In this document: positions 29,875 to 35,256 of the stretch, piece by piece
How the letters are laid out: the number at the start of each line of letters is the position of its first letter
Numbering within the stretch: the stretch's first letter is position 1
NCBI RefSeq assembly: GCF_008389435.1
Contig: NZ_VUYS01000009.1
Coordinates: 62,001-126,000 of the forward strand
Reading direction: 5' to 3'
From: Candidatus Nitrosocosmicus agrestis
GTDB lineage: Archaea > Thermoproteota > Nitrososphaeria > Nitrososphaerales > Nitrososphaeraceae
Length of the DNA: 64,000 bases
Position numbers and translations under genes: made by a program
Notes under the pieces: generated by a model
What the model was told of the DNA's origin: nothing
The model's database searches: none
The model's input: only the letters and a program-made list of their open reading frames with translations

Positions 29875-30411
29875 CTTTTCCTATAAATACCAATAATAAA
29901 GGATAATTAAAGCTATGTTGTTATTATGTACGCATAAATATTATCCATTTTTTTAGAGAAAGGCAGCTTTAAATTTCCAAGTTTAAAAGCATTATGCCAC
30001 ATTCAGGCTGTTCGAATTTAATGTAGAATCTAGTCTAAGTATAATGTACAAACTCGTGAGATTAAGAAGTGCCTTCATATCCTATACATTCGAATTTGAT
30101 GGCTGTATTCAATTATACGATAGCTTAAACCAATTTAATCCAAAATCTATTGTTTCAATGAAAAACAAGTTGAATTCTTTTTTTTTGCAGTGATAACACC
30201 CCCGAAGCCTTTGCCCCATTAAGTGCCATAGTATTGCTTGGGACTAACTAATCAGTCCTTTTAATAAGTAAATCAAGTAATTTACATCTAAAAGGTAAAC
30301 TGTCCCAAGATAATACTAAACTCATATTATTTCTCCTAGGTTCAAATCCCTTCTTCTTTTTATTCAAGGTTAGTTTCATTACTTAATATTACTTTACCAT
30401 TTTACTCTTAC
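29875..30411. other. Intergenic region before the arsenic-responsive locus
   Basis: Here, in 537 bp without a convincing gene, I see a short hairpin GGACT-N8-AGTCC followed by TTTT (30241-30262) that could end transcription on the plus strand, and an 8-bp inverted pair CTTGGGAC (30237-30244) / GTCCCAAG (30302-30309). A GGTTCAAATCCC at about 30340 resembles a tRNA T-loop, but no tRNA folds around it. Confidence 0.4.
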
Positions 30412-30445
30412 TAATTTATATAGTTTACAAAGTAAACCAAAGGTA
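30412..30445 (+). promoter_or_regulatory. TATA box plus palindromic operator, copy 1
   Basis: aatttatata (30412-30421) is followed directly by the palindrome GTTTAC-AAA-GTAAAC (30423-30437), eight bases before the ATG. The operator lies between TATA and start, so a bound repressor would block the promoter. A nearly identical element precedes arsM (33083-33116). Confidence 0.8.
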
Positions 30446-30850
30446 ATGAGTAAACAAATCTACAATCAAAATGAGAATAAAACATCGACACCTGAAAAAG
30501 TCTTGGACGCAATAGTTGAAGGTATCAATTCCGGAAATTTGGAATCATTAATGACGCTCTATGAAGCAGAATCATGTTTTGCAACCCTTCCAGGACAGCT
30601 TGCAAAGAGCCCAGAATCCATCCGCGAAAGTCTACGTAGTTTCATAGATTTGAAAGGAAAATTAGATCTTAAAGTAAAGAGAGTTCTTCATGTAAGTGAT
30701 CTTGCATTAGTAACTACAGAATGGTCATATAGCGGAACAGGGCCTGATAACGAGCCTGTCAACCTTTTAGCAAAATCTGCAGATGTTCTCCGTTTACAAT
30801 CTGATGGAACATGGCGAATTGTCATAGATAATCCTTGGGGGACAGGCTAA
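30446..30850 (+). CDS. SnoaL-like / NTF2-fold protein under arsenic-type operator
   Basis: A 134-residue protein of the SnoaL/ketosteroid-isomerase-like (NTF2) fold. The pattern VLDAIVEGINSGNLESLMTLYE, ATLPGQLAKSPESIRESLRSF, VLHVSDLALVTTEWSYSG and SDGTWRIVIDNPWG is characteristic of the DUF4440/SnoaL-like group. The reaction is unknown. Its start codon and the promoter in front of it are almost the same as those of arsM 2.6 kb away (first four codons ATG AGT AAA CA-), so it is probably controlled by the same regulator. Confidence 0.85.
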   Translation: MSKQIYNQNENKTSTPEKVLDAIVEGINSGNLESLMTLYEAESCFATLPGQLAKSPESIRESLRSFIDLKGKLDLKVKRVLHVSDLALVTTEWSYSGTGPDNEPVNLLAKSADVLRLQSDGTWRIVIDNPWGTG

Positions 30851-31048: not shown

Positions 31049-31745
31049 CTAACTATTAGCTATTTTCTTTCTATAAAGAAAAGCAATCAAAGATGTACCA
31101 ATAAATGTTGTCGTCCAGTATAACCATAGATCTGTCAATACCCCAGAGAATAAAGCAGGAGCCAGGGAACGTGCAGGATTCATGGATGCACCAGAAATAA
31201 AATCTATAAACAAATTGTCCAATCCAATAATGCCTCCAATAGCGATACTTCCAAATCCTTTCAAACCTTTTGTGTAAACTATTACCAGTATTACCGCCAT
31301 TAAAAGACCTGAAGCAAAAACTTCTATTCCAAATATTAAAGGTAATGGATATGAATAGTTAGGTGCATTGGCTCCCAAGTTTGCCTCATTACCTATTACT
31401 ATACTCACAAAAAGATTTACTAGTAAAGAGCCGAAAATCTCTGCTAAAAGATATAAACCTAATAATTATTTCGTGATGTGCTTAGTTATCGAGAATCCCA
31501 CTGAAACAGCCGGATTGAAATGAGCCATAGAAATTTTACCAAATAGATAAACACCTATTGCAACACCTATGAAGTGAGCAAATGCAATAAAAGGTTAGCC
31601 CAAAATACTATTTAATTTTGCATCAGCAACCACTGAACCTGTTGCTAAAACTACAACAATAAATGTACCTGAGTTCTACGAGAAATCTTTTTTGATTTAC
31701 AGTCAGTTTGTCAACTACAGACTCAGATGCAGAATCCTTTAACAT
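31049..31745 (-). pseudogene. Aquaporin/glycerol-facilitator (AqpS-like) pseudogene
   Basis: The minus strand encodes a broken MIP channel. The first half has FIVVVLATGSVVADAKLNSILG and the first NPA box HFNPAVSVGFSITKH; the second half (intact frame 31049-31408) has SGASMNPARSLAPALF. The reading is interrupted by a frameshift near 31670, by TAA after SILG (near 31596) and by TAA after KHITK (near 31466). MIP channels in arsenic operons let arsenite or methylated arsenicals leave the cell. It follows the arsC remnant by 56 bp on the same strand, as the end of an arsM-arsC-aqpS unit. A functional channel is not expected. Confidence 0.85.
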
Positions 31746-31801: not shown

Positions 31802-32262
31802 CTAAATTGGAATTTTATGGTCTTGGGTGGAATCAATTATTTCTAAAACTCTTTTTTCAATTTCATCTCTTATTTCTCCTACTTTCTCTATAGGCTTGTT
31901 TTTTGGGTCTTCAATACCCCAATCTATAACTTTTGGAACAAATAAAGCAGGACAGAACTTGTCATCCATACAGCCCATATTTACAATGGCTGTTGCATTT
32001 CGCATCATGTCTTCTGTCAAGTCTTTGAGTTTTTGTTTTCAAATATCTATTCCAACTTCTTTCATAACTTTTACTGCAATTGGATTAATTTGAGAAGTAG
32101 GAACCGTACCAGCACTACAGTTTCGTAGCCTTTTGAAGCATACTTTCTGAAGAAACCCTCAGCCATCTGACTTCTTCCAGCATTTTGAACACATACAAAG
32201 AGGATAATTTCTTTTCGTTTGCCCTGATCTAGTTTACCAAATGAAAATTTTATTTGTATCAC
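31802..32262 (-). pseudogene. arsC: Arsenate reductase (ArsC, LMW-phosphatase type) pseudogene
   Basis: The N-terminal part reads ILFVCVQNAGRSQMAEGFF with the CX5R phosphate loop of thioredoxin-coupled ArsC. One base is missing after YETV (near 32114), then the sequence continues in another frame as SAGTVPTSQINPIAVKVM. A TGA stands in place of a likely serine codon after GIDI (near 32040), after which the rest of the enzyme follows: MTEDMMRNATAIVNMGCMDD and DWGIEDPKNK. One frameshift and one stop make it nonfunctional as read. The GTG start is 17 bp after the arsM stop. Confidence 0.87.
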
Positions 32263-32278
32263 TCCTTTCTATAATCAA

Positions 32279-33082
32279 CTACTCTTTAACAGCCCTTATC
32301 GAAATACTACTAATTTGTCTTTTTTCTTGATCCCTTTCATCCTCTTCTAGTTCCATGTATAATTTTTCGTCAAGTATCTCGACGTTGGTAAATCCTGCTT
32401 TTTTAATACTGCCCATGTAATTTTCTTTTGTTAGTGTACCATCAATACAACTACACCAATTGTCTATATTGACAGAATCTGCATCTATTTCTTTAGAGGT
32501 GACCAAATCTGATATAATCATTTTTCCTTTGCCTTTTGGTTTCAAAATTCGGTAAATCTCTCTAAACGTTTTTTCCTTGTTTGTTGTCAAGTTGATAACA
32601 CAATTACTTGTAACTATATCAACTGAATTATCATCAACTGGAATTTTTTCTTCGATATCACCTTTTTTAAATTCTACATTGTGGTACCCATGAATTTCAG
32701 TGTACTTTCTCGCCTTGTCTAACATAGCATCTGTTATATCGACACCTATGACTTTTCCTGTCTCTTTGACGATGTTTGAAGCTATAAATACATCAATTCC
32801 GGCTCCAGAACCTAAATCTACCACTACATCACCCTCTTTTATATGAGCAAAGGTAGAAGGATTACCACAACCTAAACCAAGGATAGATGACTGTGGAATA
32901 GATTCTAGATTACTTTGATTGTATCCAACTGTTTTAGACGATTCTATTGGTGACACTACTGCTGTCTCAGCTGTACCACAACATCCGCCCGAAGAAGAGC
33001 AACAGGATAGTGAACCACCTGCCATTGCTATTTTTTCATATTGTTCTTGAATCTTGTTTTTTCTATTTAATTGTTTACTCAT
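32279..33082 (-). CDS. arsM: Arsenite methyltransferase ArsM
   Basis: A 267-residue SAM-dependent enzyme that methylates As(III). The Cys-rich N-terminus (SCCSSSGGCCG) is followed by SAM motif VVDLGSGAGIDVFIAS, then the catalytic-site cysteines in VTSNCVINL and WCSCIDGTL, as in other ArsM proteins. The frame is open to 33139, but ATG 33082 is the start: it matches the start context of the SnoaL-like gene (GGTAATGAGTAAACAA) and lies 9 bp after the palindromic operator. Unlike arsC and aqpS behind it, it is undamaged. Confidence 0.92.
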   Translation of the reverse strand: MSKQLNRKNKIQEQYEKIAMAGGSLSCCSSSGGCCGTAETAVVSPIESSKTVGYNQSNLESIPQSSILGLGCGNPSTFAHIKEGDVVVDLGSGAGIDVFIASNIVKETGKVIGVDITDAMLDKARKYTEIHGYHNVEFKKGDIEEKIPVDDNSVDIVTSNCVINLTTNKEKTFREIYRILKPKGKGKMIISDLVTSKEIDADSVNIDNWCSCIDGTLTKENYMGSIKKAGFTNVEILDEKLYMELEEDERDQEKRQISSISIRAVKE

Positions 33083-33116
33083 TACCTTTAGTTTACCAAG
33101 TAAACTATATAAATTG
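33083..33116. promoter_or_regulatory. TATA box plus palindromic operator, copy 2 (arsM / regulator)
   Basis: Palindrome GTTTAC-CAA-GTAAAC at 33091-33105 with tatataaatt at 33106-33115. Read on the minus strand the order TATA-operator-AAAGGTAATG equals that of copy 1. In the plus direction the same TATA lies about 30 bp before the GTG of the regulator gene, so one operator could control arsM and the regulator itself. Confidence 0.8.
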
Positions 33117-33139: not shown

Positions 33140-33565
33140 GTGAAATCACAGAAACCAAAAGAAAATGGAATTAATAAAACAATATCAAAACCATCGAAGC
33201 TACCAATACTCGAAGGCGATAATAATGCATGCAACTTCTATGGTTATGATATTGAGAGCTTAATGAAAGAAACGTCTCGATTAAGAAATATAATCACTAA
33301 AAGAGGAACTCTAGAAATATTGATACCACTTTGCTGTTCTACCGATCCTGTAAGATACGTTACTTTTAGAAAGTCAATGAAAGGTTTCAGCAGTAGAACC
33401 CTCACGATACGTTTAAAGGAATTGGAAAAGAGTGGTATTTTGAATAGACAATCCTTTCATGAGATTCCACCCAGGGTAGAATATAGACTTACTCCAAAGG
33501 GTCAAGAACTTGTTGGATCAATTATCAATCTGCTTCAGTGGATGAGAAAATGGTCAAACAAATAA
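33140..33565 (+). CDS. HxlR-type winged-helix regulator of the arsenic locus
   Basis: A 141-residue protein. The recognition part GFSSRTLTIRLKELEKSGIL and the wing EIPPRVEYRLTPKGQEL match HxlR/MarR-like winged helices. A neighbouring Cys-Cys pair (Cys65-Cys66, LIPLCCSTDP) just before the winged helix could bind trivalent arsenic, as ArsR cysteines do. The 40-residue N-terminal extension is Lys/Asn-rich. Translation starts at GTG 33140 without leader. Divergence from arsM with a palindromic operator between them suggests autoregulation and arsenic-responsive repression; this is inferred from position. Confidence 0.82.
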   Translation: MKSQKPKENGINKTISKPSKLPILEGDNNACNFYGYDIESLMKETSRLRNIITKRGTLEILIPLCCSTDPVRYVTFRKSMKGFSSRTLTIRLKELEKSGILNRQSFHEIPPRVEYRLTPKGQELVGSIINLLQWMRKWSNK

Positions 33566-34137: not shown

Positions 34138-35256
34138 TTGCCTTTATCAACAAAAAAAGACACGGATAATAAGGGTCTTGAACCTTGGAAGATATCTGAA
34201 ACTTTGTTTCCTAGTTATGATAAACCATTTGATAAGTTAAAATTTTTTCTCAATTATGCTATTTTGGCCCCATCAGGTCACAATACCCAACCTTGGGCAT
34301 TTAGAATATCTACTGATGATAACACAATTCATCTATATGCTGATAGAACCCGAGCATTATCTGTAGTAGATCCTGATGACCGGGAATTAATAATCAGTTG
34401 TGGGTCTGCCTTGTTTAATTTACAGTTAGCAATATCATATTTTGGCTATAGATTTGAAACTTCCATGTTACCACTACGACCAAAAGGAGAAGACACAGTA
34501 GATAATAGCCATGATTTATTGGCTACCGTTAGGATTATAGACATTCATAAAAAACCAGAGAAAACCAAAGATGAGGAAATAAAGAGAGTATTTAACTCAA
34601 TTACCCTGAGAAGAACTAACAGATTCAGATTTGATGAGGGTAAGGAAATCTCACAAGAGGTTCTGTCTAACCTCCAATCCATCGCTCATAAATACGACAG
34701 TGTCTGGCTTCATATTGAAAAGAACAAAGAGGAAAAAGAGCGAATTGCTAAACTGATTACAGAAGGAGATATTATTCAAATGTCCAACAAAAAGCTTAGA
34801 AGGGAGTTGGCTTCATGGGTCCACGCAAATAGAAATCATCTTAGAGATGGAATGCCTGGCTATGCGTTTGGATTTGGTGATATCCTGTCTTTAGTCGGAC
34901 CATTTGTGATACGAACATTTGACTTTGGTAAAGGGCAAGCCGCCAAGGACAAGGAACTTGCTACAGGTTCGCCTATTCTAATAGTGATAGGTACTAATTC
35001 AGATAATACTCATTCATGGATAAATACAGGACTAGCTATGTCAAACATACTTTTGTATCTAAAATCCGAGAATATATGGTCTTCTTACCTAAACCAGCCT
35101 ATAGAAGTTCCCCACTTGAGAAAAAGACTTGCCACTCTCATACGTGGTCATAGTGACAAAAATCCCCAATTACTTTTGCGAATAGGCTATTCGGATATAG
35201 AAGTACTGCCAACACCAAGAAGGTCGATTGAACAAACTATGCTTGGTGAAGAATGA
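34138..35256 (+). CDS. Acg-family nitroreductase-fold flavoprotein
   Basis: A 372-residue protein matching the Acg group of the nitroreductase superfamily (mycobacterial Rv2032-like), which have two tandem nitroreductase-like halves and bind FMN. Recognisable segments are NYAILAPSGHNTQPWAFRIS, DPDDRELIISCGSALFNLQLA, LRRTNRFRFDEG and, near the end, the dimerisation-type tail PRRSIEQTMLGEE. Function in redox or nitrosative stress is inferred from the family; the mycobacterial member is thought to sequester flavin. Start is TTG 34138. A DUF6544-like gene follows 56 bp downstream on the same strand. Confidence 0.85.
   Translation: MPLSTKKDTDNKGLEPWKISETLFPSYDKPFDKLKFFLNYAILAPSGHNTQPWAFRISTDDNTIHLYADRTRALSVVDPDDRELIISCGSALFNLQLAISYFGYRFETSMLPLRPKGEDTVDNSHDLLATVRIIDIHKKPEKTKDEEIKRVFNSITLRRTNRFRFDEGKEISQEVLSNLQSIAHKYDSVWLHIEKNKEEKERIAKLITEGDIIQMSNKKLRRELASWVHANRNHLRDGMPGYAFGFGDILSLVGPFVIRTFDFGKGQAAKDKELATGSPILIVIGTNSDNTHSWINTGLAMSNILLYLKSENIWSSYLNQPIEVPHLRKRLATLIRGHSDKNPQLLLRIGYSDIEVLPTPRRSIEQTMLGEE

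Follow-up and report, generated by a model that had tools for sequence, protein, structure and literature searches.

Which protein controls the arsenic genes of an archaeon when the regulator that faces its arsM is not an ArsR? The question is raised by the window (the whole stretch of 64,000 nucleotides that we analyzed), which comes from Candidatus Nitrosocosmicus agrestis, Candidatus Nitrosocosmicus being ammonia-oxidizing archaea. Arsenic operons are commonly controlled by ArsR proteins, according to the sections of PMC11868830 on which we draw. In the window, the regulator (33140..33565, + strand, GTG start) is a protein of 141 aa that we assigned to the HxlR family using the list of ORFs, Pfam, and an alignment of its subfamily. 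More precisely, the HxlR domain (PF01638) covers residues 51-140 with 69.7 bits (E 2e-19, gathering cut-off 20.8), and the gene has a low dN/dS (0.06-0.10 against five relatives). The ArsR model (PF01022) gave no match at E 0.001 in the Pfam hmmscan, where only HxlR and PadR matched. The preliminary description had proposed a divergent HxlR-like winged-helix regulator that differs from the ArsR family; both points hold, and arsM indeed lies on the opposite strand. Among the best 80 of 82 related loci, the named relatives closest by the regulator gene are Candidatus Nitrosocosmicus assemblies, with 88-91% identity.

The AF2 monomer model of the regulator (pLDDT 78.4) predicts a winged-helix fold like that of the solved HxlR-family structures. 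The structures closest to the model are QsrR, HxlR, YodB, and HypR (Z between 13.4 and 15.3): the predicted fold aligns with QsrR 4hqm over 98 residues (Z 15.3, rmsd 1.9), with HxlR 7bze over 104 residues (Z 15.0, rmsd 2.4), and with YodB 5hs7 over 98 residues (Z 14.3, rmsd 2.1). The arm that carries Cys31 is poorly modeled, with a mean pLDDT of 53 over residues 21-30 and of 70 over residues 31-40, and we therefore make no claim on the geometry of the cysteine site.

The genes opposite the regulator form an arsenic operon. The arsenite methyltransferase gene arsM (32279..33082, - strand, ATG at 33082) matches NF008823 with 268.6 bits (cut-off 263). Behind it come an arsC-like arsenate reductase of the LMWPc type (31802..32262, - strand), broken by one frameshift and one in-frame stop, and then an aquaporin-family (MIP) gene (31064..31693, - strand), broken by in-frame stops, both identified by domain models and alignment to their paralogues. 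These paralogues lie in two further operons of the genome (G000:C18, which has two arsM genes, and G000:C28), where arsC and the aquaporin gene are near full length and free of stops. Another copy of the regulator is found at C11 of the same genome, beside a remnant of arsM. We found no ACR3 pump in this genome, and there is a weak match to the ArsB family (47.6 bits) elsewhere in it. The genome also has 13 hits to ArsR-type (PF01022) domains, and these ArsR-type proteins could act on the ars genes, which counts against a role of the HxlR protein. On the other side of the regulator lies a gene for an Acg-family FMN-binding oxidoreductase (34138-35256; NF047509, 283 bits).

The association between the regulator and arsenic genes extends far beyond this genome. 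A protein search covered 400 genomes of the order, 212 of which had some match at E 1e-8, and these matches split into the subfamily of our regulator (130 copies, fragments included, in 98 genomes) and the remaining, ordinary HxlR proteins. Hits were assigned to the subfamily down to E 7.5e-18, from matches listed down to E 8.8e-16, and the weaker ones, with 36-49% identity among the matches listed, were treated as other HxlR proteins. For arsM we kept hits down to E 1.3e-53, which excludes, for example, the split arsM of G200; that one is counted in the individual check below. A divergent arsM lies within 1.5 kb of 98 of the 130 copies, and in 86 of these the aligned segments are 58-138 bp apart. 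We inspected the 32 remaining copies individually: 10 lie opposite arsC and the aquaporin gene without arsM, 7 have an altered arsM (decayed, split, diverged, or cut by the contig end), 5 are too close to a contig end to be judged, and 10 have no ars neighbour. The last group comprises 4 intact copies and 6 that are fragments, decayed, or devoid of Cys31. Hence, ars genes lie opposite the regulator in 115 of 130 copies (115 of 125 when the five undecidable copies are set aside). Conversely, the regulator is found within 4 kb of 102 of 120 arsM copies. At these cut-offs, 82 genomes have both genes, 11 only arsM, and 16 only the regulator.

We scored the neighbours in 92 loci, a set in which some places are present from two collections and some sequences end near the gene: 60 have arsM, arsC, and the aquaporin gene, 10 arsM only, 8 arsC and the aquaporin gene, 5 arsM and arsC, 1 a distant aquaporin gene only, and 8 none. 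The link to arsM suggested by the preliminary description is thus borne out by the 98 divergent pairs, but the partners are the three genes arsM, arsC, and aquaporin, and a role restricted to arsM was dropped since some copies face arsC and the aquaporin gene. The 10 copies that do so without arsM imply that the inducer does not have to depend on methylation. The four intact, cysteine-bearing copies without ars neighbours (G140:C253, G110:C122, G205:C755, and G170:C28, corresponding to L066, L056, L081, and L199) count against a response to arsenic. In four loci, we also observed a small ORF of 132-143 aa after the aquaporin gene (L093 4186-4593, L096 4130-4549, L099 4307-4735, and L101 4205-4600).

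How could such a protein sense arsenic? The preliminary description had singled out a pair of adjacent cysteines, Cys65-Cys66, as a possible As(III) site conserved in relatives linked to arsM. The pair is indeed encoded at 33332..33337 (+ strand, in ILIPLCC), and all 112 distinct full-length proteins of the subfamily have both cysteines; their link with divergent arsM genes has been described above. These proteins were drawn from 231 sequences, window included, pooled from all searches. One scan for related loci (best 80 of 82 kept) used six peptide patterns, one of which contains Cys-Cys and thus favours the pair, while the order-wide and phylum-wide searches used the whole protein or a profile as the query. 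The pair does not lie just before the winged helix, as had been described, but inside the HxlR domain, where the model places it at the end of the second helix (predicted at 57-65). A third cysteine had been overlooked: Cys31 (33230..33232, + strand), in the motif C-x-F-x-G-Y, is present in 110 of the 112 proteins. The exceptions are L206, which has a tyrosine, and L205, a copy with stops that lacks the region, and neither has ars neighbours. Around this position, residues 20-30, 32, and 34 are variable, with insertions ahead of Cys31, and C31, F33, G35, and Y36 are kept in 92 of 92 sequences; in the larger set of 112, F33 is found in 108 and both G35 and Y36 in 110. With Cys31 conserved nearly as well as the pair, we no longer favoured a site consisting only of Cys65-Cys66. 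The pair stands as a part of the likely site, which is the triad Cys31, Cys65, and Cys66, and hence a possible three-thiolate As(III) site. In a phylum-wide search of 398 genomes, all matches better than E 1e-26 came from the same order, and the two best matches from outside it (L164 and L165) lack the Cys-Cys pair.

The comparison with ordinary HxlR proteins reveals what the subfamily has lost. This set includes 33 proteins from the same class and 2 from the phylum (35 of 36 loci, L188 being left out as an ArsR-domain locus); it contains some close relatives, and a smaller set of 22 agreed with it. The place of residue 43 is occupied by a cysteine in 35 of 35 ordinary proteins and in 0 of 111 members of the subfamily (one further member has a gap). 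In the structural alignment with the predicted model, the offset of 32 places HxlR Cys11 at this residue, so that the conserved helix-1 cysteine of the HxlR-type redox and electrophile sensors is absent from the 111 subfamily members. The pertinent part of PMC7835342 states that Cys11 of HxlR reacts with formaldehyde and calls it a conserved residue that senses electrophiles or oxidants in other members. Conversely, none of the 35 ordinary proteins has Cys-Cys at 65-66, where all are one residue shorter. Residue 56 differs as well: it is Trp (26) or Phe (9) in the 35 ordinary proteins and Gly (99), Ala (12), or Ser (1) in the 112 of the subfamily. Since residue 43 is a cysteine in the ordinary relatives and never in the subfamily, and the structural alignment places the ancestral cysteine there, the subfamily has exchanged this cysteine for three others.

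The spacer between the two divergent genes contains a palindrome, GTTTAC-CAA-GTAAAC (33091..33105), that is perfect to 33089-33107, where it reads TAGTTTACCAAGTAAACTA, its three central bases being free. The palindrome abuts a TATA-like box, TATATAAA (33106..33113), which we read as a promoter element based on the archaeal TATA spacing. The center of the box is about 27 bp from the ATG of arsM and about 30 bp from the GTG of hxlR; given these distances, the box may serve both divergent genes and both messages may be leaderless. The palindrome lies between the TATA box and the arsM start, which fits the expectation for a repressor. We searched for GTTTAC-N3-GTAAAC in 81 distinct intergenic regions and found it with 0, 1, 2, and 3 mismatches in 22, 17, 39, and 3 of them, respectively. 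Hence, 78 of 81 regions have at most 2 mismatches vs. 0.74 expected from shuffles, an expectation that is only a guide because the shuffles are mononucleotide and the regions are related. In many of these regions, the right half is weaker and reads GAAAC before TATTTAAG.

The specificity of this element depends on its form. The bare palindrome with at most one mismatch is not enriched in its own genome (9 places vs. 32 for the reversed control), where the exact palindrome occurs at three places: the hxlR-arsM promoter, the C18 copy, and 30423-30437. When the palindrome was searched together with the TATA box, again with at most one mismatch, we obtained 16 matches, spread over 9 of the 15 genus genomes, vs. 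2 for the reversed control; 14 of the 16 precede a gene of the subfamily and 2 precede other genes. The exact palindrome combined with a Nitrosotalea-type box occurs 13 times in 300 genomes of the order, and the reversed control never; each time, the aligned part of a gene from the subfamily lies 41-68 bp further on (the gene of G216:C86 being broken). There are no matches of palindrome and TATA box in 6 of the 15 genus genomes, and genomes bearing the gene often lack the exact operator. These strict patterns miss most subfamily genes, which have weaker operators. The half of the palindrome that adjoins the TATA box may be conserved as part of the promoter, which counts against its being an operator. 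We nevertheless propose, from these patterns of sequence, that the palindrome in the common promoter is a conserved operator, whose specificity shows when its exact form is combined with the TATA box.

The third exact copy in this genome, the second of the window (30423..30437), lies upstream of a SnoaL-like ORF of 134 aa (30446..30850, + strand), identified by a domain model and by the alignment of its promoter. The region 30389-30448 has 52 of 60 bases identical to the hxlR-arsM spacer read towards arsM (33139-33080), including the first codons, and the alignment scores 111 vs. at most 39 in 300 shuffles. Since its promoter, operator, and first codons nearly duplicate those of arsM, the SnoaL-like gene is likely under the same control as arsM and was probably brought into the arsenic regulon by promoter duplication. 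A similar copy of promoter, operator, and start occurs in another Nitrosocosmicus assembly (L042, 4061-4948), before a methyltransferase ORF that has no match to the arsM query at E 1e-15. New genes thus seem to have acquired copies of the arsM promoter and operator.

Taken with the known behavior of HxlR, we consider it probable that the regulator is an autoregulated repressor of arsM, arsC, and the aquaporin gene that is released when trivalent arsenic binds Cys31, Cys65, and Cys66. A dimer with the HxlR fold would occupy the palindrome in the promoter region common to its own gene and to the operon. Trivalent arsenic, produced by ArsC or taken up by the cell, would then be held by three thiolates: Cys31 would provide one from the arm that precedes helix 1, and Cys65-Cys66 the other two from where helix 2 ends, and the arm of one subunit may reach the pair of the other. 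Its binding would shift the arm and helix 1, which are coupled in HxlR to the DNA-binding helices, so that the dimer would leave the DNA and both divergent genes would be transcribed. In the part of PMC7835342 devoted to this coupling, a change at the N-terminal cysteine of HxlR displaces helix 1 together with the DNA-binding helices and the partner subunit's helix 2; a cysteine in the arm and a pair that closes helix 2 would therefore be well placed. In the account of As(III)-responsive ArsR proteins given by PMC11868830, three cysteines are used, and CgArsR combines a vicinal pair with one cysteine from the other subunit. The protein may instead be an activator, as HxlR itself is named in the portion of PMC7835342 cited here.

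An unlikely alternative is that the protein is a redox or electrophile sensor of the YodB, HypR, and QsrR kind, working through disulfides or adducts, with the ars genes included in a thiol-stress response. To our knowledge, the cysteine-based regulators of the HxlR family all sense electrophiles or oxidants, and QsrR, HxlR, YodB, and HypR are the solved structures nearest to our predicted model. Such a sensor would, however, have lost the canonical N-terminal cysteine (0/111 at residue 43, against 35/35 in ordinary relatives), and its recurring divergent neighbours would be arsM, arsC, and the aquaporin gene. The reaction of HxlR with formaldehyde is a precedent in its favour, as far as the relevant section of PMC7835342 goes.

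We regard as slightly less probable still that the vicinal pair alone senses methylarsenite, the toxic product of ArsM, with a structural role for Cys31. The commonest neighbour, arsM, agrees with this, as does SpArsR, which uses two cysteines to bind MAs(III) and is unresponsive to As(III) according to the corresponding passage of PMC11868830. The near-equal conservation of Cys31 (110 vs. 112 of 112) and the 10 copies opposite arsC and the aquaporin gene without arsM argue against it. Three thiolates bind many soft ions, and the regulator could thus respond to another thiophilic ion (for example, Cu(I), Hg(II), Sb(III), or Zn(II)), the ars genes being bystanders; given the ars genes opposite 115 of 130 copies, which is an argument from linkage only, we find this very improbable.

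The HxlR family is not known to sense arsenic, and in the open-licence literature we found neither a description of an HxlR-family arsenic regulator of this kind nor data on how any member responds to arsenic. On balance, the locus is rather likely to represent a second, independent solution for arsenic-responsive transcription outside the ArsR family, in which an HxlR redox regulator of ammonia-oxidizing archaea became a three-thiolate, probably inter-subunit, sensor of trivalent arsenic for arsM, arsC, and aquaporin, and in which promoter and operator were copied to further genes. One lineage among the widespread nitrifying archaea seemingly controls its arsenic genes with another protein family, which has a cysteine site and an operator of its own. 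If this is true, it explains the control of arsenic methylation in ammonia-oxidizing archaea and provides a new scaffold for arsenic sensing, as well as a clear-cut example of how a redox regulator can become a metalloid sensor through the relocation of its cysteines.

Among known systems, the ArsR proteins of the CgArsR type (type 3: Cys15-Cys16 and Cys55 of the other subunit, in the classification excerpted from PMC11868830) also control ars genes with a pair and a distant cysteine, although they belong to another family and fold and the positions of the cysteines are thus not comparable. In the ArarsRMC operon (arsR-arsM-arsC) of Arsenicibacter rosenii, the regulator likewise adjoins arsM and arsC, but it is an ArsR encoded in the same operon, whereas here it is a divergent HxlR protein and there is an additional aquaporin gene. 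The Sinorhizobium operon arsR-aqpS-arsC-arsH has, as here, an aquaporin-family channel beside arsC; unlike here, it is controlled by ArsR and is not known to include arsM. The HxlR/DUF24 regulators (HxlR, YodB, HypR, and QsrR) share with our protein the HxlR domain, the winged-helix fold (in the predicted model), and the nature of a small thiol-bearing regulator. What sets the subfamily apart from them is the lack of the canonical N-terminal cysteine and the new Cys31 in the N-terminal arm, and, relative to ordinary HxlR proteins, the replacement of Trp or Phe at position 56 by Gly, Ala, or Ser and the one extra residue that makes the Cys-Cys pair.
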